This document shows, in pieces, positions 46,558 through 63,158 of a stretch of 64,000 nt of DNA. The translations under genes and the position numbers were made by a program. Source of the stretch: Pseudoxanthomonas sacheonensis (GTDB taxonomy: Bacteria; Pseudomonadota; Gammaproteobacteria; Xanthomonadales; Xanthomonadaceae); contig NZ_PDWS01000006.1 in NCBI RefSeq assembly GCF_010093305.1, forward strand, positions 1 through 64,000, written 5' to 3'. The notes beneath the pieces were generated by a model that was not told the origin of the DNA, ran no database searches, and saw only the letters and a program-made list of their open reading frames with translations. Position 1 is the stretch's first letter, and each line of letters opens with the position of its first letter.

Positions 46558-47169
46558 ATGAGCAACCACAAGAAAACACCCGCAAAGTCCGCCGTCACCA
46601 AAGACCAGGCCGAAGCCGCCGTACGCACGCTGCTGGCCTGGGCGGGCGAAGACCCGACCCGCGAAGGCCTGCTGGACACGCCCAAGCGCGTGGTCGAAGC
46701 CTATGGCGACTGGTACAGCGGCTACAGCGAGGATCCTCGCGAATTCCTGGAGCGCACCTTCAAGGAAGTGGCCGGCTACGACGAGATGATCGTGCTGCGC
46801 GACATCGAATTCGAAAGCCACTGCGAGCACCACATGGCGCCGATCATCGGCAGGGCGCACGTGGGCTACCTGCCCGACGGCAAGGTAGTGGGCATCAGCA
46901 AACTGGCGCGGGTGGTGGAAACCTACGCGCGCCGCTTCCAGGTACAGGAAAAGATGACCGCGCAGATCGCCGGCTGCATCCAGGACGTGCTGCAGCCGCT
47001 GGGCGTGGGCGTGGTGGTGGAAGGCATGCACGAATGCATGACCACCCGCGGCATCCACAAGCGCGGCGTCAGCATGATCACTTCCAAGATGCTGGGCAGC
47101 TTCCGCGAGGATGCGCGTACGCGCGCGGAGTTCCTGCGCTTCATCGAGGCGGGGAACGGGAAGCGCTAG
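46558..47169 (+). CDS. folE: GTP cyclohydrolase I
   Basis: 203-aa enzyme converting GTP to 7,8-dihydroneopterin triphosphate, first step of folate and tetrahydropterin synthesis. Zinc site [58 protein letters not shown]. Length typical. 40 bp after recD. The pterin may also serve PhhA. Confidence 0.96.
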
Positions 47170-47220
47170 AGTGGGGTGATCTTTCCCTGAGCGGAAAGGG
47201 ATTTGGGACAAGGAGGTCTC

Positions 47221-47577
47221 ATGCCAAGAATCTCCAATTCGTTGCTGCATGCAAAGCGCATGCATCGATCGGCTACGGATGCCGAAGCAAAACTGTGGCG
47301 AAACCTGCGGGCGGGGCGACTCGCCGGATACAAGTTCAGAAGGCAGCAGCCCATCGGCCGCTGCATCGTGGATTTCGTCTGCTTTGAACAGCGGCTTGTC
47401 GTCGAGGTGGATGGTGGGCAGCACCTTGAAGCGCAGCTTTCGGACGCCCTGCGTACGGAATGGCTGGAGAGTGAAGGTTTCCGGGTTCTGCGGTTCTGGA
47501 ATGACGATGTGCTGCTGCGTACGGACCTGGTTCTGGCAGAAATACTGAGAATGTTGAGCATCAAGCGAGGCCAATGA
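47221..47577 (+). CDS. DUF559-domain (Vsr-like fold) endonuclease-like protein
   Basis: 118-aa protein: AKRMHRSATDAEAKLWRNLRAGRLAGYKFRRQQPIGRCIVDFVCFEQRLVVEVDGGQH is the DUF559 / very-short-patch-repair-like fold with candidate metal residues Asp and Glu in VDFVCFEQRLVVEVDG. Strong Shine-Dalgarno AAGGAGG 6 bp before ATG 47221. DUF559 genes are often mobile or scattered; a type B repeat begins at its stop codon. Function in DNA repair or degradation is plausible but unproven. Confidence 0.85.
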   Translation: MPRISNSLLHAKRMHRSATDAEAKLWRNLRAGRLAGYKFRRQQPIGRCIVDFVCFEQRLVVEVDGGQHLEAQLSDALRTEWLESEGFRVLRFWNDDVLLRTDLVLAEILRMLSIKRGQ

Positions 47578-47578
47578 C

Positions 47579-47801
47579 CCACCTCTCCCCTCGTGGGAGA
47601 GGTCGACGCGCCTGCGCGGCGGGAGAGGGGCGAGCGGAGCCAGTAAAGTTGCCCCAGTAGTGTGGCTGTCGCATTCGGTATCGAACGTTGCGTTGACCAC
47701 ATTGGCCATGGATTGCTACTCCGCTCACCCCTCTTCCGCCCCCGTATCAAGTACGGGGCAAGCTCTACGGGCACCTTCTCCCACAAGGGGAGAAGGGAAA
47801 A
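47579..47801. repeat. Type B dispersed repeat, copy 3
   Basis: CCACCTCTCCCCTCGTGGGA, GAGGTCGACGCGCCTGCGCG and GGGAGAGGGGCGAGCGGAG at the left; CCCGTATCAAGTACGGGGC (also in copy 1) and TTCTCCCACAAGGGGAGAAG at the right; centre differs from the other copies. Fills the gap between the DUF559 gene and the MFS gene. Confidence 0.92.
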
Positions 47802-47838
47802 GCTAAACTGCGCTCTTTCATTGTCATCCGGCCATCCT

Positions 47839-53328: not shown

Positions 53329-53691
53329 TTAGCTGTCGCCAGACGGGCTCCGGGACAGGCCGTTTCCACTGAGGGCGTAAATGTAGGCTTGGACAACAGT
53401 GCCGGTTTCGAGCTTTGCCGGAACCAGCATGCGCACATAACCTTCGCCTTCGAACCGATCGAGCCGCGTCCAATGCGCGCCCAGCTCACCGGAGGAAAAG
53501 ACGAATCCCGCGACCTCGCCGCCGCCTTCATCCACCACGATGCCCGGATAGCCGATCGCCGCTCCCCAGCCTTGTTGACGCAACGCGCCTCTGACTGTCG
53601 CGGTCTCCCAGGTGCCGGGAACCTCAGCCAGCACATGCGCATTCGGGCGGCCGGGTGCGAGCGAACCGTAGACGAAGAGTCGGTCGGTCAT
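53329..53691 (-). CDS. Gamma-glutamylcyclotransferase-like (GGCT/AIG2) protein, likely cassette gene
   Basis: 120-aa protein: RLFVYGSLAPGRPN (YGSL loop) and RFEGEGYVR with the catalytic Glu81, as in the GGCT/AIG2/YtfP fold. Acts on gamma-glutamyl amines or peptides in characterised relatives. It starts 15 bp after the attC-like site at 53706-53764, a layout typical of integron cassettes. Last gene of the minus-strand array. Confidence 0.85.
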   Translation of the reverse strand: MTDRLFVYGSLAPGRPNAHVLAEVPGTWETATVRGALRQQGWGAAIGYPGIVVDEGGGEVAGFVFSSGELGAHWTRLDRFEGEGYVRMLVPAKLETGTVVQAYIYALSGNGLSRSPSGDS

Positions 53692-53705: not shown

Positions 53706-53764
53706 GATCAACGCCTGAAATGAGCTGGCACGCCAGGCGGCCAGGCTTGGATGGACTGTCAGTT
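53706..53764 (-). other. attC-like site 1
   Basis: 59 bp. On the minus strand: AACTGAC (degenerate RYYYAAC), then CCATCCAAGCCTGGCCGCC, TGGCGTGCCAGC, ATTTCAGGCGTTGATC ending in GTTGATC (GTTRRRY with one mismatch). It overlaps the TGA of the upstream gene and is 15 bp from the next ATG. ATTTCAGGCGTT is a common attC right half. Confidence 0.65.
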
Positions 53765-54175
53765 GCTGCTGATGTTCACATTCCACTCTTGAATGGGCAC
53801 GTCGGTGCGCTCCACGACAAGTTCTTCGATGATCTGCTGCTCCGTGGTCAGCTGCGTCTTCCCCTGCGCAACAGGCTCTACGGCGCTGTCCGCGTCGCGC
53901 CAGGCGACAGTGACCCGCAGATCCCATTGCTCGTTGGCAGAGTTGAAGCGTGGCCTGGACAAGCGCGCCCATAGAATACGGCCGTCTTTTATCTTGGCGC
54001 GCAAAAGCGGGATCCGGTTCTTCTCGAACAAGCCGATGAACTGCAGCTCTTTGCCGGGCTTGATCCAATAAGTCTGCTCGACGACGAAGGGACTACGTGC
54101 CGCTGGATCCTGCTGCGCGACCGCGCTCATCGGCACCAATGCGAAAGCAAGTAGGAGGGGGGCAATAAAACGCAT
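53759..54175 (-). CDS. Secreted hypothetical protein, likely cassette gene
   Basis: 138-aa protein: signal peptide (MRFIAPLLLAFALVPMSAVA-QQ), then VEQTYWIKPGKELQFIGLFEKNRIPLLRAKIKDGRILWARLSRPRF, which resembles the NIPSNAP/Dabb fold of the genes at 12.8-13.2 kb, followed by RVTVAWRDADSA and a tail. Function unknown. Flanked by attC-like sites 1 and 2 with starts and stops within a few bases, as for an integron cassette. Confidence 0.75.
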   Translation of the reverse strand: MRFIAPLLLAFALVPMSAVAQQDPAARSPFVVEQTYWIKPGKELQFIGLFEKNRIPLLRAKIKDGRILWARLSRPRFNSANEQWDLRVTVAWRDADSAVEPVAQGKTQLTTEQQIIEELVVERTDVPIQEWNVNISSN

Positions 54176-54194
54176 GCGACAGAATCTCCCTGGC

Positions 54195-54245
54195 GAATAA
54201 CGCCTGAATTCAGCTGAACCGGAGTGGGGTGGCGACTGGTTGTAA
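54195..54245 (-). other. attC-like site 2
   Basis: 51 bp. Minus strand: TTACAAC (AAC conserved), AACCAGTCGCCACC, ACTCCGGTTCAGCTGAATTCAGGC, then GTTATTC (GTT conserved). Right half CTGAATTCAGGCGTTAT is close to typical attC right ends. 135 bp downstream of the Hsp70-like gene and 20 bp upstream of the next ATG. Confidence 0.6.
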
Positions 54246-54379
54246 CTTTAGCCGAAGGCGAGCGCTTAGGCACGGCTTCATGACTTGAGTGAAGACCTTC
54301 GCTGACCAAGGTGAACGCCGACGCGAAAACATACCAATACGCAGCGGCGAGTCGGCGGGCGGTCAACGCCGGCCGGAAA

Positions 54380-55747
54380 TCAGTTCAACCCGCCCGGCGC
54401 GTGATCGGCCAGACCCGAAACGACTCCCAGCGAGGGATCCCCGAACACCAATCTCACATTGGGAAATGCTTCCCGCACGACCGCCTGCACATACGGCGCG
54501 CGCGACATGCCGCCGGTCAGGAAAATGCTGTCGGGGCGCGCTTCCAGCTCGCTCGCCACTTCGCGCAGCAGCCGTTCCAGCCGGCTCAGGAAATCCACGC
54601 TGGCGATCCGCAGGTCCTCGCGACTGGCGGCGACCGACAATGCCGCATCGATATAGTCCAGCGCATGCCGGCTGTCGTCCTGTTCGCTGAGCCGGATCTT
54701 CATGGACTCCACCGCGCGATACAAACGGGTGGTGCCGCCGTCGTGCTGCAAGGTCCGCAGCCGCGCGTTGTAAGGCGCGGGCACTTCGCTGAAATCGCGT
54801 TTGTGGAAGGCGCGCTGGCGCGGCATGTCCTGGACCATGGCCGCATCCACGAAATGATGCGCGGGCACGCGGGTATCGCCGCGCCCGAACAGCGGCATGA
54901 AGTGGGCCATGCTCAGGGCCAGGTCCACGTCGGTGCCGCCATTGGGCAGGCCCCAGGCGCGATGGATCACCGGCGCCTGGCTGCCGCCGACCTGCGCATG
55001 GGCGATATCGGTGGTGCCGCCGCCGACATCCACCACCAGCGTGGAATGCCGGGTATCGCTGCCAGTGTGGTAATGCAGCGCGGCGGCGGCGGTTTCTTCC
55101 AGGAAGTCCACCGCCTCGAAACCGGCGATCTGCGCGGCTTCGGCCAGGATATCCAGCGCCTGCTCGCCGCCTGCAGGACCCAGCGAACTGCGGAAGCGCA
55201 CCGGCCGCCCGATCGTGGCCAGGCGCACCTCGGTGCCCAGCTGCCCGCCGGCGGTCAGGCGAATATGTTCAAGAATCTGCGCGGCGATGCCGGTGATGGT
55301 CTTCCGCGCGCGCGGCAGCAGGTCGTAACCCAGCATCGATTTTGGCGACTGCACAAGGTGGCCGCTGCCTTCTTCCAGGTAACGGTCGATGGCGTCCTCG
55401 CCGAATACCGCATCGTCCAGATCCGCCGCCGCGCCCTCGGCTTCCTGCCTCTGCGCCTCCAGCCATTGCCGACGTACTATCTGCACGGCATCGCGGTGCA
55501 GCTGCGCATCGCTGCGCGGTATCACGCCGCTGCGCGTCTGCTCGGCCTTGGCCGCCCGCACCAGCGCCGCGACTTCGCCTTCCAGCGCGGTGGTCAGACG
55601 GAAATCGGCCGGGTCTGGCAAAGTGGTGGGGAAGAACACCGCGGTACGGAACTGCGGCAGTCCGCCGAAGCGGATGTGCTCCAGCCGCCCGCCAATGCGC
55701 GCTGCCGCAGCCGAGTAGCTGGTGCCGAAGTCGATGCCGATTCTCAT
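54380..55747 (-). CDS. Hsp70-family protein (YegD-like)
   Basis: 455-aa Hsp70-fold ATPase: MRIGIDFGTSYSAAA (phosphate 1), TLVVDVGGGTTDIAHAQVG (phosphate 2), and RPDSIFLTGGMSRAPYVQAVVREAFPNVRLVFGDPSLGVVSGLA (adenosine site). The C-terminal substrate-binding domain of DnaK is absent, as in YegD-type proteins. Start at ATG 55747; the frame upstream is not coding. It lies between two attC-like sites in the same orientation, so it may be a large cassette; base composition is like the chromosome, so it could also be a native gene. Confidence 0.88.
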   Translation of the reverse strand: MRIGIDFGTSYSAAAARIGGRLEHIRFGGLPQFRTAVFFPTTLPDPADFRLTTALEGEVAALVRAAKAEQTRSGVIPRSDAQLHRDAVQIVRRQWLEAQRQEAEGAAADLDDAVFGEDAIDRYLEEGSGHLVQSPKSMLGYDLLPRARKTITGIAAQILEHIRLTAGGQLGTEVRLATIGRPVRFRSSLGPAGGEQALDILAEAAQIAGFEAVDFLEETAAAALHYHTGSDTRHSTLVVDVGGGTTDIAHAQVGGSQAPVIHRAWGLPNGGTDVDLALSMAHFMPLFGRGDTRVPAHHFVDAAMVQDMPRQRAFHKRDFSEVPAPYNARLRTLQHDGGTTRLYRAVESMKIRLSEQDDSRHALDYIDAALSVAASREDLRIASVDFLSRLERLLREVASELEARPDSIFLTGGMSRAPYVQAVVREAFPNVRLVFGDPSLGVVSGLADHAPGGLN

Positions 55748-55848
55748 GGGGGATGGGGGCTTGCGCGCGGGGGCCGGCGATTCTACGCGGTACGGACGTG
55801 CGCGTCGCGAGGAGATCGCAATCCAGGCATGAGACTGGGAGAGGGCGG

Positions 55849-55907
55849 CATCAACGCGCGAATCGGGCCGGCCCGCTCCGCGGGTTCGGCTTGAAAGAGT
55901 TCTGGAC
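55849..55907 (-). other. attC-like site 3
   Basis: 59 bp. Minus strand: GTCCAGA (RYYY conserved), ACTCTTTCAAGCCGAACCCG, CGGAGCGGGCCGG, then CGCGCGTTGATG (GTTGATG, degenerate GTTRRRY). TTCAAGCCGA is the usual attC arm. It begins 2 bp after the stop of the VOC remnant. Confidence 0.65.
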
Positions 55908-55908
55908 C

Positions 55909-56034
55909 TCAATCCTCGGGCAGCAGCTGCGGATTCCACAAGACTTCCCACAAATGCTGGTCGGGATCTTGGAAGTATCCTGCGTAACCGCCCCAGGGCG
56001 TGTCATGGGCGGGCTTTACGATCACGGCGCCGGC
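55909..56034 (-). pseudogene. VOC-family C-terminal remnant
   Basis: 41 codons open on the minus strand ending in TGA: AGAVIVKPAHDTPWGGYAGY then FQDPDQHLWEVLWNPQLLPED. GGYAGYFxDPDxHLWEVxWNP is the C-terminal signature of glyoxalase/bleomycin-resistance proteins. The N-terminal two thirds are missing. It is in frame with, and directly follows, the TAG stop of the 130-aa gene, as if a cassette junction had been deleted. Confidence 0.85.
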
Positions 56035-56427
56035 CTAAATGCCTTTGGCGTCGGCGTAGGCGATCCAAGCGCCGCAGATCAGAACGAAATAGACCAGGCC
56101 GGCCACGGAAATTATCTGCGACCGCCGTAACTGCGGGTGGAGTTTTCCGACGCTTGCGGCGTACACCAGCAGACCGACCTTTCCGATGCTGCGGCCGTCA
56201 GCGGCGGCCTGCCCGGCAATCAGCATGAAGTGGTGCACGGCGAACACGAAAGGAAACAGAACAATGGCCTGGACGGCTGCGACCACCCACGCCACCGGAA
56301 ACCCGAACGGTTCACGGCCGAAAGCTTTGGCAAGCACGGGCTGCACGTCCGGCGAGAATACGGTGCCGATGAGCAGGATGTAGATCACCGCCGGAAGCGC
56401 ATAGCTCATTCTGCTTTTTCGAGGCAT
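56035..56427 (-). CDS. Hypothetical membrane protein, cassette gene
   Basis: 130-aa protein with three or four hydrophobic helices (YALPAVIYILLIGTVFS, VAWVVAAVQAIVLFPFVFAVHHFMLIA, VGLLVYAASVG, IISVAGLVYFVLICGAWIAYA). No family recognised. ATG 56427 (MPRKSRMSY) lies 20 bp after attC-like site 4; the longer open frame upstream reads through that site and the previous gene's end. Confidence 0.75.
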   Translation of the reverse strand: MPRKSRMSYALPAVIYILLIGTVFSPDVQPVLAKAFGREPFGFPVAWVVAAVQAIVLFPFVFAVHHFMLIAGQAAADGRSIGKVGLLVYAASVGKLHPQLRRSQIISVAGLVYFVLICGAWIAYADAKGI

Positions 56428-56446
56428 CGGTGATGATCCGTTTGGA

Positions 56447-56506
56447 GCCTTGCTATCCGGGTCAAGCCAGTCGGCGAAGCGATCGGCTTGGGGGGAATGG
56501 TCAGGC
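56447..56506 (-). other. attC-like site 4
   Basis: 60 bp. Minus strand: GCCTGAC (RYYYGAC), CATTCCCCCCAAGCCGATCG, CTTCGCCGACTGGCTTG, then GCAAGGC (degenerate GTTAGGC). CAAGCC/GGCTTG form a stem around CGCTTCGCC. Seven bp after the stop of the 107-aa gene. Confidence 0.65.
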
Positions 56507-56513
56507 ACTGCCT

Positions 56514-56837
56514 TCAGTCGCCTAGCGCGGCCCCTAGAAACAAGGCTGCGACGACGCCAATCAGAACCATAACCCACATTGGCGCTTTCTTTGCAGGCGG
56601 TGGCGCAGAGAGCTCTTCCTCGGAGAAAGCCCCCAGCTCGTGCAGAAGATCGACTGCGCGATCCCAATCCTCATCGCGCAACAGGTAGATGCGGCATTGG
56701 CGAATCATGAGTGGCGACCCGAGTCCGGAAGTGGCCGGATCTGTGTCCGAGGAGTAGTAGGGAATCTCCTCGCGGTCGAAGGTGAGGCAGATGAGCTGGG
56801 TAAAAGAAAGACTGCTTGTCGTGTAGAGGAGCTTCAT
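56514..56837 (-). CDS. Small protein with DUF2007-like domain and C-terminal helix, cassette gene
   Basis: 107-aa protein: MKLLYTTSSLSFTQLICLTFDREEIPYYSSD, RQCRIYLLRDEDWDRAVDLLHEL resembles DUF2007 ('putative signal transducing') proteins; then APPPAKK and a C-terminal membrane helix MWVMVLIGVVAALFLGAAL. Begins only 6 bp after attC-like site 5, so it lacks room for its own promoter. Confidence 0.75.
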   Translation of the reverse strand: MKLLYTTSSLSFTQLICLTFDREEIPYYSSDTDPATSGLGSPLMIRQCRIYLLRDEDWDRAVDLLHELGAFSEEELSAPPPAKKAPMWVMVLIGVVAALFLGAALGD

Positions 56838-56842
56838 GCAGG

Positions 56843-56902
56843 GCCTAAGGACTGAATTGATCCGGGCCGCGAAGCGGCTTGGGCTTGAATGGATTATCAG
56901 GC
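56843..56902 (-). other. attC-like site 5
   Basis: 60 bp, the best-preserved loop. Minus strand: GCCTGAT, AATCCATTCAAGCCCAAGCC, GCTTCGCGGCCCGG, TCAATTCAGTCCTTAGGC with CTTAGGC (one change from GTTAGGC). It overlaps the TGA of the GNAT gene. Confidence 0.75.
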
Positions 56903-57385
56903 ATGCCTTTCGAAACGCTGCTCATTGACCAGCTTCCCCCATTGATCGCCGGCTTGCTGGTGAACAAGCCGAAAGCCGTGCCTTTCATAGAGATGCCTGG
57001 CGGTCTCCAGGCCCTCGAAGGTCCACAGATACACGCGGCGGAAGCCTTGCGCAATGCAATGTTCCATGGCGTGGTCCATCAGTCTGCTTCCGATTCCTGT
57101 CCCGCGCGTTTCCTCGGACGCGATAAACCAGCGAAGGTGCGCGCCTTCTTCCTCGGCGCGCGACCCGTCTATGGCGATGGATCCTTGTATTCTGTTTCCT
57201 TCCACGGCCAGCCAGATTCCATCGCGCCCGGCCTGGTACTGCTCAAAGAAAGCGACCAACCCGCCGGCGACCTTCGCCTCGAAGGGAAGGCCAAACCCGA
57301 CAAGTCGGCTGTAGTAGTCGGCGTGGAGTTCGGTAATGCGCCCGATGCAGCCGGGCACATAGCCCTGTTGTACGGTGAGTGCCAT
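56897..57385 (-). CDS. GNAT-family N-acetyltransferase, cassette gene
   Basis: 162-aa acetyltransferase: HLRWFIASEETRGTGIGSRLMDHAMEHCIAQGFRRVYLWTFEGLETARHLYERHGFRLVHQQ. The RGTGIGS loop binds acetyl-CoA; conserved Tyr in LYERHGF. Substrate unknown. The start lies 12 bp after attC-like site 6. Aminoglycoside-type activity cannot be claimed, but GNATs are frequent in integron cassettes. Confidence 0.88.
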   Translation of the reverse strand: MALTVQQGYVPGCIGRITELHADYYSRLVGFGLPFEAKVAGGLVAFFEQYQAGRDGIWLAVEGNRIQGSIAIDGSRAEEEGAHLRWFIASEETRGTGIGSRLMDHAMEHCIAQGFRRVYLWTFEGLETARHLYERHGFRLVHQQAGDQWGKLVNEQRFERHA

Positions 57386-57396
57386 TGACGCGCCTT

Positions 57397-57459
57397 TGCG
57401 AACCTACCTGGACCAAGCCGAGTCGAGAAAGTGGGTTCGGTTTGAATGAATTTCCAGAC
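57397..57459 (-). other. attC-like site 6
   Basis: 63 bp. Minus strand: GTCTGGA, AATTCATTCAAACCGAACCC, CTTTCTCGACTCGGCTTGG, then GGTAGGTTCGCA with GTTCGCA. The AATTCATTCAAACCGA arm is near the classical attC arm, but both ends are altered. It starts 69 bp after the 361-aa gene stop. Confidence 0.65.
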
Positions 57460-57527
57460 TTTACCTCATGCAGGCCCCGGCGGATCGAAGCACCGTAGCC
57501 CGCTGCTGGTCCACGCGCGCCCGGTCT

Positions 57528-58613
57528 TCAAGAAAATGGAAGCGATGCATTCTTGGGAGCCAAGATGCTGCACCAATTGATTGCACTTGAGCTATAGGCA
57601 ATCACGTCGGCGCCATTGAACAGCACGTCAACCTTCTTCTCATCCAGACCGGACAGATTCTGCTTCGCCGTCAACGAAAACTCAGCGAATGGCTCCCCGT
57701 TATCAAGGCGGCAAAGAATAATTCCATTTCCTTTTGGAGGTCTTATCGCACAGTACTGATTGCAGTGACTGACCTGCAATGCGCCATGCGGCAAGGACAC
57801 CACCGACTCGGCCTCGAATCGGCTGACTGACGGTGCTTCTTCCTGCTCTTTGCCGGGAACAGGGCCGACCCACGTTTTATGATCTTGCTTGATGCCATAC
57901 CGGACGATGTAGTTGGCGTCACCTCTTGCAAGGGTCGCCTTTGTCGACTCACCCCCTATCGTATTGGCAATTATCTGGTCCCCGATGAGAGTCAATCCAC
58001 GGAGGTTCAGGAAACTCACAAGCGGAGGAAGATTTCCGCCCATTGCATCCAGAATTTTTCGGTCTTCCAACTCGCAGAGAGGAGAGTTCCAAAAGAAGTC
58101 CTGTCCATCGAACTCAAGGATGGTGAAATACCGCCCTACTCGTACGAAACCAGAATCAGAGAGTTTCACCAAAAATTGACTGCCGGACAGTTGGTGAACA
58201 GAAAGGATGGCCGGCATCCGTCGAAACTTGCCGTCGTTTTTTATGATCTTTTGATCATCCCGCAAAATCTCCCAATTGCGGACTCGATACGTTTTCTTGC
58301 GGTCAGAACGCCAATCGGGCCAGTGGTGGCAAAGATGGGAATCGAAGATCGCCACGCCGGTTGTCCAGCGAAACCATGGGTAGCTGTAAGTCGAATGCTC
58401 CAACTCGGCGATGAGGGGAGCGTCGATTATTTTGCCGCTTCGATCAAGCGTGTATATGGCCGGCGAATACGGATCTGCCGTGAGCTGACCGATCACGGCA
58501 AGTCTCTCGCTGTCGAAGTGCTCGATCCGCATCGTGCTGATCAGTCCATGGTCCAGCGGGATCGTCTTTACTATCTCTGTTCTTAGATCGAGGCGGTTGG
58601 TCATGGTATCCAT
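57528..58613 (-). CDS. Hypothetical protein, 361 aa, cassette gene
   Basis: 361-aa soluble protein with no signal peptide or membrane helix and no recognised domain. Composition is richer in Asn, Lys and Ile than neighbours and the DNA is less GC-rich, which suggests transfer. Repeated beta-strand-like patterns (AVIGQLTADPYSPAIYTLDRSG, FLVKLSDSGFVRVGRYFTILEFDG, GIILCRLDNGEPFAEFSL) hint at a beta-propeller. Lies between attC-like site 6 and a REP-type remnant. Function unknown. Confidence 0.7.
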   Translation of the reverse strand: MDTMTNRLDLRTEIVKTIPLDHGLISTMRIEHFDSERLAVIGQLTADPYSPAIYTLDRSGKIIDAPLIAELEHSTYSYPWFRWTTGVAIFDSHLCHHWPDWRSDRKKTYRVRNWEILRDDQKIIKNDGKFRRMPAILSVHQLSGSQFLVKLSDSGFVRVGRYFTILEFDGQDFFWNSPLCELEDRKILDAMGGNLPPLVSFLNLRGLTLIGDQIIANTIGGESTKATLARGDANYIVRYGIKQDHKTWVGPVPGKEQEEAPSVSRFEAESVVSLPHGALQVSHCNQYCAIRPPKGNGIILCRLDNGEPFAEFSLTAKQNLSGLDEKKVDVLFNGADVIAYSSSAINWCSILAPKNASLPFS

Positions 58614-58689
58614 CAGGAAGCTCCGTCTGCGAACGACTCATCCGCGAGTGGGCGGTCAAGAACCGCTGGTTCAGAAACCAGAATTTGGA

Positions 58690-58757
58690 AAATGTGCATG
58701 GGGAACTCTTGAAAGCTGCTGCGTTCTACCCGGGCTACGTCACTGCGCTCGCTCTAG
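58690..58757. repeat. REP remnant (gctgcgttctacccgggctacg)
   Basis: GAAAGCTGCTGCGTTCTACC CGGGCTACGTCACT is shared with 59584-59623, with a few changes, followed by an imperfect inverted copy (gctagccaggctgcg). It resembles the common proteobacterial REP motif 'ctgcgctctacccaggctacg'. Occupies the gap 58614-58771 with nothing else clear. Confidence 0.7.
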
Positions 58758-58771
58758 CCAGGCTGCGTAAC

Positions 58772-59428
58772 TTAGTCGTCCAAGCCAAACTCGTTGGGAA
58801 TTTCAGCCATAAGTCGTGTTAACACAGTGTTGGGCAAAGTTCCAGATTCCTGCAGGGGAAGCTGTTTTACATCGATAAAATCAACTAGCCGACAAGCTGA
58901 TGAGCTAATCGTAGCCGGCGCTTTAGAAAAATCCGTCACGCAGTTCAGTTGAACAACTATCAAATCAGCGTGGGAGTTTGACTCCATACTGATTCGTCCA
59001 ACCCTTTTGCCAGCTATCTCCAGGGCGTTTGGCGCGCAGAAGCTAACCTGAAGTCGCGGCTGGAATGAACTGAGAACCCTAATCACAGCTGCGGCTGCGC
59101 GAGTAAGTTCGTCGTGAGAATCGACGATGGTACCAACGGCAAAGGCGAATGCTACTGTGAGTGATCCATGCGTAGCCCACCAAGCCTTTGGTATAGCTTT
59201 CGCACCTTTTCGACGTCCGCTGGTCTCGTCCCAGACGACTACCACGCCGGGAAGTAGCAGCCGACCACTGTTAAGTACTTGATTCGCTTTTTCAGAGACA
59301 GACGCCGCATTGGTAAAATAGAGCGCATGTTCAAGTGCTCCAATTGTGGGCGCAACAAACCCTTCGGCGTCTACCTGGTCTGCGTCTTCGCGCAGCACCC
59401 CCTCACTGGGCCGCTTCTTTCGTAACAT
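58772..59428 (-). CDS. Biotin/lipoate-ligase-fold-like protein, cassette gene
   Basis: 218-aa protein not matched to a named family. Residues about 60-165 follow the layout of the BirA catalytic domain: VVWDETSGRRKGAKAIPKAWWATHGSLTVAFAF (in place of the GRGRRG loop), LQVSFCAPNALEIAGKRVGRISME (in place of KWPNDLxxxxRKLAGILxE, Lys kept) and DLIVVQLNCVTDF (in place of the QIVIGAGINM strand). Key Gly-Arg-rich and Trp-Pro-Asn-Asp residues are changed, so normal ligase activity is doubtful. Lower GC than its surroundings. It follows attC-like site 7 after about 200 bp. Confidence 0.65.
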   Translation of the reverse strand: MLRKKRPSEGVLREDADQVDAEGFVAPTIGALEHALYFTNAASVSEKANQVLNSGRLLLPGVVVVWDETSGRRKGAKAIPKAWWATHGSLTVAFAFAVGTIVDSHDELTRAAAAVIRVLSSFQPRLQVSFCAPNALEIAGKRVGRISMESNSHADLIVVQLNCVTDFSKAPATISSSACRLVDFIDVKQLPLQESGTLPNTVLTRLMAEIPNEFGLDD

Positions 59429-59583
59429 TACTTTAGACCCTATCTAATAAACTGTCGTGCTTGCGAGAACTCTGTAGGGACGCCGATATCGGAACACCGC
59501 CGTTCCAGAGTTGTCTATCGAAGTGGACTGGCTACATGGGGCATCTGTATGTCAGATCAAAAGCCCCGGCTTGACCAGATTCG

Positions 59584-59623
59584 CCGTTGAAAGCCGCTGC
59601 GCTCTACCCAGGCTACGTCACTC
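59584..59623. repeat. REP remnant, second copy
   Basis: CGTTGAAAGCCGCTGCGCTC TACCCAGGCTACGTCACT, matching 58703-58743 with three changes. The gap 59429-59702 otherwise holds attC-like site 7 and an inverted pair AACTCTG/CAGAGTT near 59470-59510 that may be a decayed site. Confidence 0.65.
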
Positions 59624-59632
59624 TGACATGAG

Positions 59633-59694
59633 GTCTAACCTAAAAAATAGTTAGAAGCCGCGAAGCGGCCTTGGATTGAACTATCTAGTAGATC
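59633..59694 (-). other. attC-like site 7
   Basis: 62 bp. Minus strand: ATCTACT (degenerate RYYYAAC), AGTTCAATCCAAGGCCGC, TTCGCGGCTTCTAAC, TTTTTTAGGTTAGAC ending in a perfect GTTRRRY (GTTAGAC). It starts 8 bp after the stop of the 152-aa gene. Confidence 0.7.
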
Positions 59695-59702
59695 TTATGC
59701 GA

Positions 59703-60161
59703 CTAAATCAAGGTCGCATCAAGCTTCTTGCGAAACAGATCTTCAATTCCATCGAAGAAAAATTGCAAATTGTCTTCCGGACCATTGGTGGCACGCCCAT
59801 GTACTTTTCCCATGGCACAGAATCCAATCTGACAATCTGGCTCCCCAATGACGAGAACGAATGGATTCTGCTCGTCGCCTCTTAAGTACCTCCCGCCATA
59901 CTGTCTTCTGGCACACTCAAATACATAGGCTGAGGCCAGAAAATGAAGGTCTTCTGGAAGCGGCGCCTTCTGCGAGTAGAAATCCTGAAGAACCTTATCA
60001 ACCAACGTTATAGATTCTCTACCAAAGTCGAGTTTATCCGCGTCAATTGGGGAGCCATCTCCGCGAAATGCTTCGATGAAATCATTTGCTTGGGACGCCA
60101 TGCCCTCTTCAAGTGAGGCGGGCATTTTCGGTTTTCTGCGGAAAATATCAAAGATACTCAT
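59703..60161 (-). CDS. Hypothetical protein, 152 aa, first array gene
   Basis: 152-aa protein: MSIFDIFRRKPKMPASLEEGMASQANDFIEAFRGDG at the N-terminus, HFLASAYVFECARRQYGGRYLRGDEQNPFVLVIGEPDCQIGFCAMGKVHGRATNGPEDNLQFFFDGIEDLFRKK. Type and style recall immunity-like or SUKH-like small proteins, but no family is assigned. ATG 60161 has AGGAAG upstream; a longer frame to 60284 lacks one. AT-richer than the chromosome. Outermost gene of the array on the high-coordinate side. Confidence 0.7.
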   Translation of the reverse strand: MSIFDIFRRKPKMPASLEEGMASQANDFIEAFRGDGSPIDADKLDFGRESITLVDKVLQDFYSQKAPLPEDLHFLASAYVFECARRQYGGRYLRGDEQNPFVLVIGEPDCQIGFCAMGKVHGRATNGPEDNLQFFFDGIEDLFRKKLDATLI

Positions 60162-60357
60162 CAGTCTTCCTGAGTGATGGGTGTAAGTCCCAACACTATA
60201 TTGGCCCCCAATATGAGGCGGGATCAGATGATCTGCGTTGACGACACTCACGGTCAATATCAATAAATTGCGTAGCATGGCCAATACTTTCCCGTCTTCC
60301 GAGACGTGAAAGCCAGGAAGATGATTTGAGAAAGATGGATTGAACTGCGGACATTTG

Positions 60358-60387
60358 AGATATCACCGCAGCTCTGCGGCGATATCT
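60358..60387 (-). terminator. Hairpin after the GH5 gene
   Basis: AGATATCACCGCAG / CTGCGGCGATATCT, 14-bp arms with one mismatch and a 2-base loop, 35 bp downstream of the GH5 stop on the minus strand. Weak U-tract. The rest of the 260-bp gap 60162-60421 shows only AGTTCAATCCA (60335-60345), shared with attC-like site 7. Confidence 0.6.
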
Positions 60388-60421
60388 GTACAGCATCACG
60401 GGGCGTTTCGGACTTCCCGAA

Positions 60422-61477
60422 TCAATCCGTAACCTGATGCGCCTTCTTCGAAAGCACCGTCATCTGCGGCTTCTCGTTGCCTTCCTTGTCCGGCTGCACA
60501 TTGAACGGATAGTCCGGCTTCCACCACGCGCCACCGGCCCAGTAAGTCCAACCCAGCCACACATCGGCGTTGGTTTCGATGTACTCCAGCATCGACTCCA
60601 GCGCAGCCATGCACACCGGATCGCTGCCAGCGGCGAACTCGCCCAGAAAACCTGCCTTGTGGTGCTCGCGTAGCCAGGCAGTGAAACCCTGCAGCTTCTG
60701 CACACCGATCTGCTCGCTCTGGCATTGGCCGGAAGTACCCGAATAATCCGCGTCCAGATACTGATGCGCCTCGAACGCGATGCGGTTGGCGGGGTCGGTG
60801 ATCACCAGCAGCGCCTCGCCATTGGACGTGCCTCCGTACCAGGCGCCGTTCCAGCTGTGGGCGCCGCTGTAGGCGGTGCCCGGCACCAGTACCAGATTGT
60901 TCGCGCCGGCAGCGCGGATAGCATTCAAGCCGGCTTGCGCGGCATCGGCCCAGCTCTTGGCGTCGATGCCGTTGGGCTCGTTCATCAGGCCGAAGATCAC
61001 CGAGTCGTCGTCCTTGAATTCGGCGGCCAGCCTACTCCAGAAATCCGCGAAGACCGCGACCGGAGTTTCCGCCGTGCCGATCCGGCTGCCGTAATACCTG
61101 GCGTAATTGTGCACGTCCAGCACCACGCGCAGATTCTGCGCCTTGGCCCGCTTCACTGCGGTCTGCAGATAGGACAGCTGCTGGCTGTCCAGCGCGCCGT
61201 TGGCCTGCGGCTGCAGCCGTTCCCACAGGAACGGCAGGCGGATCACGTTCATGCCCTTGGAAGCGTAGTAGGCGTAGTCCGACTCGCTGGGGTAGGTGTA
61301 GTCCTTGTAGAGCACGCCGGGTTTTTTCGACGAATTGAATTCGGCGCCGGCCAGATTGACTCCGGCGTATTCCAATACACGTGTGGTTTGCGCCGAAGCC
61401 GGACTCAGGTTGGCCGACAGCAGGAGCAGGCAAGCGACGATGGCGATCCGGCAATGAGGAAGAGCATGCAAGCGCAT
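60422..61477 (-). CDS. Secreted GH5 endoglucanase (cellulase)
   Basis: 351-aa glycoside hydrolase family 5 protein: signal peptide (ACLLLLSANLSPASA-QT), then GMNVIRLPFLWERLQP, VVLDVHNYARYYG, VIFGLMNEPNG (acid/base Glu167) and KAGFLGEFAAGSDP (nucleophile Glu280), with WLGWTYWAGG near the end. All catalytic residues present, so an active beta-1,4-glucanase is likely. No cellulose-binding module. Divergent arrangement to nothing; gltD follows on the same strand upstream. Confidence 0.94.
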   Translation of the reverse strand: MRLHALPHCRIAIVACLLLLSANLSPASAQTTRVLEYAGVNLAGAEFNSSKKPGVLYKDYTYPSESDYAYYASKGMNVIRLPFLWERLQPQANGALDSQQLSYLQTAVKRAKAQNLRVVLDVHNYARYYGSRIGTAETPVAVFADFWSRLAAEFKDDDSVIFGLMNEPNGIDAKSWADAAQAGLNAIRAAGANNLVLVPGTAYSGAHSWNGAWYGGTSNGEALLVITDPANRIAFEAHQYLDADYSGTSGQCQSEQIGVQKLQGFTAWLREHHKAGFLGEFAAGSDPVCMAALESMLEYIETNADVWLGWTYWAGGAWWKPDYPFNVQPDKEGNEKPQMTVLSKKAHQVTD

Positions 61478-61552: not shown

Positions 61553-63150
<1,598 letters not shown>

Positions 63151-63158
63151 ATCGCACA

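Follow-up and report, generated by a model that had tools for sequence, protein, structure and literature searches.

The 64 kb of DNA analysed here, hereafter the window, holds an array of small genes interspersed with seven attC-like sites, all on the minus strand and in a single orientation, and the question that it raises is whether these genes are integron cassettes, what placed them where they stand, and whether they still move. The preliminary description read the array as a CALIN, that is, a cluster of attC sites lacking an integron-integrase, a class proposed in the IntegronFinder 2.0 report to consist of degraded integrons (PMC9024848), and assigned it to a Lysobacter-like chromosome. 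The genus appears instead to be Pseudoxanthomonas, and the closest relative found, G027, which is Pseudoxanthomonas sp. CF125 (the DNA being identical over the 21 kb compared), is listed in the same genus.

The sites were searched for with two models, a structure-aware one (R1), which is a clade-specific substitute for the attC model of IntegronFinder, and a sequence-only profile, which was run on both strands of the window. Both were trained on 29 attC taken from integrase-adjacent arrays of relatives (12 genomes, of which 10 belong to the genus), with none from the genome under study; candidates came from our own R-box motif scan over 21 loci and were filtered by length, arm words and an identity of at most 93% to those kept, one of the 30 survivors being omitted from A1. 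Because the training attC were drawn from them, R1 matches in the training genomes are partly by construction. Pair statistics computed on this set concern the training attC and not the sites in the window, and the shuffles behind them do not preserve relatedness. All seven places described earlier exist, and the observation is confirmed (Table 1): they take ranks 1–6 and 8 among the 16 profile matches at E ≤ 10, and five of them score above all four decoys (one reversed window and three block-shuffled windows, with a best score of 7.9 bits), sites 1 and 4 being the two that do not. With filters off, R1 gives nine matches at E ≤ 10 in the window, including four minus-strand matches at E ≤ 1, and its top five are five of the seven sites, though the fourth and fifth are barely distinct because the best match elsewhere reaches 11.4 bits. 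For site 7 the R1 match comes from a smaller search, and site 6 has none in either the window search or the smaller one; the L'-R' half of site 6 alone is clear, and the counterparts of sites 6 and 7 in G027 score 14.4 and 20.6 bits with R1. Rfam gives no family at gathering score within the window. An attC ancestry is shown for most of the window sites, and the lack of any model hit that would have spoken against it is not what is seen.

Table 1. Sites and genes of the array, in the direction of the minus strand. Identity is that to the corresponding site in G027.
Feature	Position	Strand	R1 (bits)	Profile (bits; span)	Fold z	Identity	Remarks
152-aa ORF	59703..60161	-					First gene of array; in G008 a homologue (34% identity) is a cassette flanked by two strong attC
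Site 1	59638..59693	-	13.3	7.9 (59681-59656)	-2.08		Downstream of 152-aa ORF; profile score equals best decoy; GTTAGAC at 59639-59633 overlaps its 3' end
218-aa orphan ORF	58772..59428	-					Missing from this place in G027; flanked by REP-like repeats
361-aa orphan ORF	57528..58613	-					Pattern scan of 84,980 species (one genome each), which reaches no further than close relatives, gives a sole relative, in Pseudoxanthomonas sp. CF125
Site 2	57402..57459	-	20.3	18.7 (57452-57408)	-0.11	92%	Junction of 361-aa ORF and GNAT gene
GNAT acetyltransferase, 162 aa	56897..57385	-					Common to G027
Site 3	56843..56902	-	39.2 (E 9.5e-08)	29.0 (56900-56844)	-1.31	62%	Overlaps GNAT stop; highest-scoring of the set; counterpart in G027 borders exchanged gene
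107-aa ORF	56514..56837	-					Weak DUF2007; DUF4272 gene in its stead in G027, between the corresponding two sites
Site 4	56447..56506	-	11.6	5.9 (56490-56464)	+0.32	70%	Junction of 107-aa and 130-aa ORFs; profile score in decoy range
130-aa ORF	56035..56427	-					Homologues adjoin attC in G131 (other genus, 75%) and G026 (66%)
Glyoxalase-like (VOC) gene, C-terminal fragment	55909..56025	-					Pfam Glyoxalase E 0.00066, 20.5 bits against cut-off of 20.6; same short form in G027
Site 5	55849..55908	-	16.4	15.8 (55901-55853)	-0.05	90%	Abuts stop of truncated glyoxalase-like gene, upstream of Hsp70-like gene
Hsp70-like gene	54380..55747	-					Probably chromosomal framework, not cassette
Site 6	54182..54240	-	none	11.5 (54221-54198)	-0.35 (54182-54233)	88%	Directly upstream of 138-aa ORF
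138-aa ORF	53759..54175	-					Cassette-like layout; common to G027
Site 7	53706..53766	-	7.8 (53706-53764)	12.6 (53759-53710)	+0.26	72%	Junction of 138-aa ORF and GGACT gene
Gamma-glutamyl cyclotransferase-like (GGACT) gene	53329..53691	-					Last gene following a site

The cassette-like layout that had been described is borne out as well. At five of the seven sites a start codon follows within 5–19 bp, namely that of the GNAT, 107-aa, 130-aa, 138-aa and GGACT genes, with larger gaps before the Hsp70-like gene (101 bp) and the 218-aa ORF (209 bp). The 152-aa, GNAT, 107-aa, glyoxalase-like and 138-aa genes end 0–9 bp short of the following site or run into it, the larger gaps being those of the 361-aa ORF (68 bp) and the Hsp70-like gene (about 140 bp); the starts of the 152-aa, 130-aa and Hsp70-like genes are ATG codons chosen within longer reading frames.

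The hairpins of the sites are largely lost. A functional attC forms an imperfect hairpin in which the R and L boxes pair, but none of the seven window sites folds clearly better than shuffled sequence, with z from -2.08 to +0.32 compared with -4.73 for an intact attC of the same genome used as control, and folding was accordingly set aside as support for the sites. Since the sites have no clear folding advantage over their shuffles, the array is probably a fossil and its present activity is unsupported; we infer that it no longer recombines. The CALIN reading thus stands in its attC ancestry and in the lack of a local integrase, but because the hairpins are largely lost, what it describes is a decayed array. 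As in the CALINs of the IntegronFinder 2.0 report (PMC9024848), several attC-derived sites lie in one orientation between small genes with no integrase nearby, whereas the window sites are mostly weak and poorly folded, with two of them and no more reaching E ≤ 1 genome-wide, and this with the clade-specific R1 model rather than that of IntegronFinder.

Comparison with G027 shows that genes have been exchanged at the array since the split from this close relative. The six best of the seven R1 matches in G027 lie at positions corresponding to window sites with their strand unchanged, and the same is true of the top six profile matches. Gene content differs between two corresponding sites and at the first genes of the array, where a DUF2798 gene stands in G027 in place of the 218-aa and 152-aa ORFs; between the two sites, it is the 107-aa ORF that differs. 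Three sites at unchanged borders are 88–92% identical between the species and the two flanking the exchanged 107-aa gene less so (Table 1), though divergence of a site alone is no proof of exchange, since site 7 has diverged to a similar degree with both of its neighbours common to the two genomes. The borders of the 107-aa exchange fall within the sites and not at G^TT, so that homologous recombination could have produced them.

Some of the window genes are shown to belong to the cassette pool. Two of them, the 130-aa and 152-aa ORFs, have homologues that occur as cassettes elsewhere, and the former, two of whose six homologues adjoin attC, reaches another genus. In the case of the DUF2798 unit of G027, it is 86% identical over 470 nt to a cassette of another species (G008), where attC of 61.2 and 69.2 bits flank it, and the match begins no more than 5 nt from G^TTAGGC and extends into an attC arm, giving the unit a G^TTRRRY border on the left and a right side that reaches the L'' arm; in G027 the unit is joined to the 3' flank of GH5 with no recognisable attC in front. 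No empty attG site is demonstrable there, G000 and G027 failing to align in the flank that follows GH5. The 107-aa ORF was considered as a known cassette and rejected, its four homologues in 199 genomes (own genome apart) all lying without attC nearby, and for the 107-aa, 218-aa, 361-aa, 138-aa, GNAT and GGACT genes the only relative beyond the G027 orthologue in 1.5 Mb of loci is a 27% GNAT match in G007.

The Hsp70-like gene, which lies inside the array, was set aside as a cassette, and it probably belongs to the chromosomal framework, since in G026, G019 and G003 it stands between a BenE gene (so named from Pfam) and a gene that we take to be gltD, whose Pfam domains Fer4_20 and Pyr_redox_2 fit that name, with no attC beside it. 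With R1 there is no adjoining match in G003 or G019, and the four matches in G026 (L075 18245-19611) are about 6 kb or more beyond gltD, with none nearer the Hsp70-like gene. The array genes were not found in the corresponding interval of these three relatives, which retain the flanking genes, so that the gene order conserved across distant relatives that would have spoken against cassettes is not what is found.

The description of the array as integrase-less holds for the window, where no IntI is found, but not for the genome. A search of the whole genome with TIGR02249 gives seven matches at E ≤ 0.001, of which a single one, on contig C4, exceeds the cut-off; this is a full IntI (466 bits over 313 of 315 model positions), residues 25–335 of which align to the Vibrio IntI of PDB 2A3V. 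The C4 locus carries intI, attI and attC, its cassette ending in an attC of 54.2 bits, and while its attC family is common to the window, the window has attC relics alone.

Probably, then, the array is a decayed cassette cluster outside any integron (a CALIN), placed by an integrase encoded elsewhere and now effectively fixed. An integron integrase encoded at another chromosomal locus would have acted in trans to put the cassettes between gltD and BenE, next to the Hsp70-like gene, with entry probably at secondary (attG-like) sites of the chromosome and then at attC already present. Several genes would have kept their frames open, whereas the attC would have lost their hairpins, which the integrase requires, leaving the cassette genes effectively fixed. 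The array may thus have been seeded by an integrase acting outside an integron. Cassettes are described as entering genomes at such non-classical attG sites (PMC12444791, PMC12901181), and as in that work cassettes abut the chromosome at G^TTRRRY, neither attI nor attC being recognised ahead of them, both in G027 here and at another locus, although the process here is read from natural borders only. At locus C9 a unit is bordered by G^TTRRRY and attC in the genome under study, but the attC that ends the G027 unit is not recognised by R1, which slightly lowers our confidence in this explanation.

An alternative that we regard as unlikely is that the locus was formerly a complete integron that lost intI and attI from its left end by deletion, so that only the distal cassettes remain. 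G011 and G007 each have an intI-bearing array of the same orientation that stops some 1–3 kb short of an Hsp70-like gene, itself about 13 and 18 kb from intI, and at other loci of G027 truncated intI copies lie beside attI, consistent with such a loss. The Hsp70-like genes of G007 and G011, however, are just 55–56% identical to that of the window, and the stretches around them yielded no gltD; contig C41 has no IntI match at E ≤ 0.001 with TIGR02249, and no intI and attI stand beside the array in the window. The stretch before the 152-aa ORF does look attI-like by eye, only 0.5% of 400 random window stretches being as good, but it was dropped as a candidate, since at least five other places scored higher in an alignment scan of both strands and the attI profile finds nothing in the window at E ≤ 20.

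Less probable still is an ordinary variable island in which homologous recombination exchanged the genes and the attC-like sites were passive passengers never used here. The internal borders of the 107-aa exchange and the failure of the sites to fold would both suit it, but against it stand the match of the DUF2798 unit to the G008 cassette from close to G^TTAGGC and a first-gene exchange that begins at G^TTAGGCC, seen in these two genomes at a different dispersed locus; for the window itself, such an island may still be the explanation. Finally, that chance palindromes or REP elements were taken for attC is scarcely credible, for while two repeats that we take to be REP-like lie in the array (58709-58744 and 59587-59622) and sites 1 and 4 score within the decoy range, the other five exceed every decoy, on one strand and at gene ends, and the sites have counterparts in G027 and cassettes shared with other genomes.

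The favoured reading, that of a decayed CALIN, is of a type of structure that is already known, and what is added is that genes have been exchanged there relative to a close relative. We take the window array to be of the same family as the CALINs that Xanthomonas carries outside ilvD. About half of Xanthomonas genomes are described as having CALINs at loci other than ilvD, which occupy seven chromosomal loci in the well-sampled species (PMC12444791). Compared with those described there, the neighbours in the window are gltD, the Hsp70-like gene and BenE, attC matches at E ≤ 0.001 fall on 11 contigs of this draft genome, and close relatives differ in gene content. The window array is best filed among the many attC places that lie scattered over this genome. 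A more speculative suggestion, to which we give limited credence, is that Pseudoxanthomonas runs a distributed integron, in which one or two integrases would serve many scattered cassette stations, some headed by their own attI without intI and others seeded at attG-like sites, with genes swapped within the time that separates close species; the window would then be an old, silenced station.

One genus thus offers a natural series of extra-integron cassette clusters, from intact to fossil, at which close relatives differ in their genes. This bears on whether CALINs are broken integrons only or also arise where integrase acts on ordinary sites of the chromosome, as well as on the way in which cassette genes turn into permanent chromosomal genes.

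Our attC reference, which contained no site of this genome, was drawn from stretches beside full integrases in relatives (20 taken from the 41 genomes above the IntI cut-off), where a scan for R-box motifs gave 29 sites from 12 genomes. An attC site has R and L stems with two extrahelical bases, and the alignment of the 29 sites (A1) supports this shape, with 93% of cells paired, a value equalled in 0 of 500 shuffles. Both a structure-aware covariance model (R1) and a sequence-only profile were derived from A1.

The seven attC-like minus-strand sites that the preliminary description had claimed at 53706-59694, interspersed with small genes, were all recovered on that strand by the sequence profile, as ranks 1-6 and 8 of 16 matches in the window at E≤10. 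Five of them (29.0, 18.7, 15.8, 12.6, and 11.5 bits) score above all four decoys, the best of which reached 7.9 bits, while two (7.9 and 5.9 bits) do not. With filters off, R1 gave nine matches in the window, the five best of which lie at five of the seven sites (39.2 to 11.6 bits), and the best match away from these scored 11.4 bits; under random placement over both strands, the probability that the five best would fall in this one-strand stretch is ∼2e-7, a rough figure in that the stretch had been preselected in the preliminary description. Speaking against function, none of the seven stands clearly above shuffles in folding (z −2.08 to +0.32), whereas an intact attC of this genome gave z −4.73. 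The window sites thus look descended from attC in sequence, with their structure worn.

Coordinates and counts of the features discussed (G000, this genome; G027, Pseudoxanthomonas sp. CF125; L numbers, stretches of genomes; C numbers, contigs)
Feature	Location	Remark
Site 1	window 59638-59693	minus strand
Site 2	window 57402-57459	minus strand
Site 3	window 56843-56902	minus strand
Site 4	window 56447-56506	minus strand
Site 5	window 55849-55908	minus strand
Site 6	window 54182-54240	minus strand
Site 7	window 53706-53766	minus strand
107-aa ORF	window 56517-56837	minus strand
Alignment break with G027	window 47165-47802	
Alignment break with G027	window 56481-56876	in array
Alignment break with G027	window 58773-60422	in array
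Alignment break with G027	window 63016-63154	small
REP-like repeats	window 58709-58744, 59587-59622	
C9 first-gene exchange	G000 C9, L115 6934-7519; G027 C6, L177 4384-4771	
attC matches in G026	L075 18245-19611	all on one strand
attC ends in shared sequence	L008 15104-15294; L112 191-253	
Loss of most of intI in CF125	L008 13470-14224 vs L181 4026-4032	
attI-like sequences, G000	C4, C20, C25, C8 (two), C44	6
attI-like sequences, G027	C4 and C5 (locations named)	9
attI-like sequences, G011		5; closed genome
attI-like sequences, G015		3; closed genome
attI-like sequences, G007		

The closest relative found was G027, in which large pieces align with 44-64 kb of the window at 89-97% identity, interrupted by the main breaks in the table. 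Within the array, the 107-aa ORF gives way in G027 to a DUF4272 gene (Pfam E 1.4e-71), and the 218-aa and 152-aa ORFs to a DUF2798 gene (Pfam E 2.6e-19). Between the two genomes, identity is 88-92% for three sites where the borders are unchanged and 62% and 70% for the two bordering the exchanged 107-aa gene, while site 7 is 72% identical to its counterpart, although both of its neighbor genes are common to both. The six best of seven R1 matches in G027 (20.6 to 11.8 bits) fall at corresponding positions on the same strand. In a further relative, G026, which keeps the BenE, Hsp70, and gltD genes, the Hsp70-gltD interval is ∼0.1 kb versus 5.8 kb in the window, and in G019 and G003 it holds ∼2.4 kb of other sequence. 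G026, which is without the window's array, has four attC matches (20-51 bits), all on one strand, several kb beyond gltD. REP-like repeats, 92% identical over 36 nt, flank the 218-aa ORF in the window, and in G027 a similar one comes immediately after the L'' arm of the attC that belongs to the DUF2798 unit.

Some array genes have relatives among cassettes elsewhere. The G027 DUF2798 unit, which comes after the GH5 gene's flank and has no attC match ahead of it, is 86% identical over 470 nt to a unit of G008. The match starts within 5 nt of G^TTAGGC and runs into the attC arm, and the G008 copy is bordered by attC of 61.2 and 69.2 bits within a run of six. The 152-aa ORF has a 34% homologue in G008 between two strong attC (78 and 88 bits). 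Homologues of the 130-aa ORF occur in six of 199 genomes, own genome and G027 apart, and two of these adjoin attC: G131, from another genus (four sites, ≤67 bits), and G026 (one, 50.6 bits). The 107-aa ORF has four homologues, none of them beside attC, and the remaining array ORFs have no relative in 1.5 Mb of compared loci beyond the G027 orthologue, save a 27% GNAT match in G007.

The term integrase-less, applied in the preliminary description, holds locally, with no IntI match on the window's contig C41, but not genome-wide: the 4.04-Mb genome (44 contigs) has one IntI over the cut-off, on C4 (466 bits against 265), whose residues 25-335 align to the Vibrio IntI structure 2A3V at 300 bits. 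It is adjoined by an attI (71 bits, itself part of the scoring profile) and by a cassette-like ORF with an attC of 54.2 bits. This attC ends, close to the contig end, in an apparent IS tail. Two attC, in L008 and L112, end in identical non-attC sequence, which at C4 is followed by the apparent end of what is presumably an IS110/IS1111-type transposase, and the sequence suggests an attC-targeting IS that may have broken the assembly. Genome-wide, R1 gave 18 matches at E≤0.001, spread over 11 contigs, several of which break near their sites; since six contigs (C9, C11, C39, C41, C42, and C44) carry matches >20 kb from their ends, at least six attC places look separate. Of 38 genomes searched in the genus, 37 have at least one match at this threshold, ten of these having supplied model sequences.

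At the C9 locus, this genome and G027 share a chromosomal flank, with ...ACAATA at its end, followed by G^TTAGGCC, differing first genes, and, after the next G^TTAGGC (ATTAGGC at that point in this genome), a common GNAT gene. The first gene in this genome has an attC of 57 bits at its end, and the end of the corresponding G027 gene resembles attC by eye, with no R1 match at E≤1. Judged from these sequences, the first-gene swap is a natural exchange in a small array between close relatives. Three dispersed loci, C9, C11, and C44, out of the ten other contigs that carry sites, were compared with G027, and gene content differs at all three.

The best-supported account of the window is a cluster of cassettes inserted outside the integron and subsequently decayed. 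Cassettes would have entered there through an integrase acting in trans, and decay of the cluster would have followed. The case for action in trans is strengthened by the C9 exchange, which borders at G^TTAGGCC in the same two genomes. Homologous recombination is a possible maker of the exchange at the window, since the borders of the 107-aa exchange fall inside the sites. It is less likely that the window was formerly a complete integron, for although intI-bearing arrays in G011 and G007 likewise stop close to an Hsp70-like gene, no attI was found in the window and C41 has no IntI match. These two arrays (L079 and L080), from two other congeners, have the orientation seen in the window, and the Hsp70-like gene near them is 55-56% identical.

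Sequences resembling attI are found at multiple positions per chromosome, in several cases immediately upstream of same-strand attC; the counts in the table were made with an attI model (R2, E≤0.01) that contains some of the sequences it counts. No paper on such multiplicity was recognized by title in literature searches. A tblastn search (E≤1e-4) of the attI/attC array stretches of G011 (L143, L144) and G015 (L137) turned up no IntI remnant. Most of intI is missing from the CF125 platform that corresponds to the C4 integron. Further N-terminal pieces of intI lie next to attI elsewhere (L123, L184, L112), C25 of this genome included, where the match contains two TAG.

Clusters of attC sites lacking an integron-integrase (CALINs) are a known kind, proposed in passages of PMC9024848 to be degraded integrons. 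About half of Xanthomonas genomes carry CALINs outside the integron locus according to a section of PMC12444791, where they are contrasted with insertion at attG, a non-classical chromosomal cassette entry site that is also treated in part of PMC12901181. None of the papers listed in a literature search combining Pseudoxanthomonas, integron, and attC names the genus in its title. By comparison with the CALIN literature, the window thus adds a new, decayed member to this known kind.
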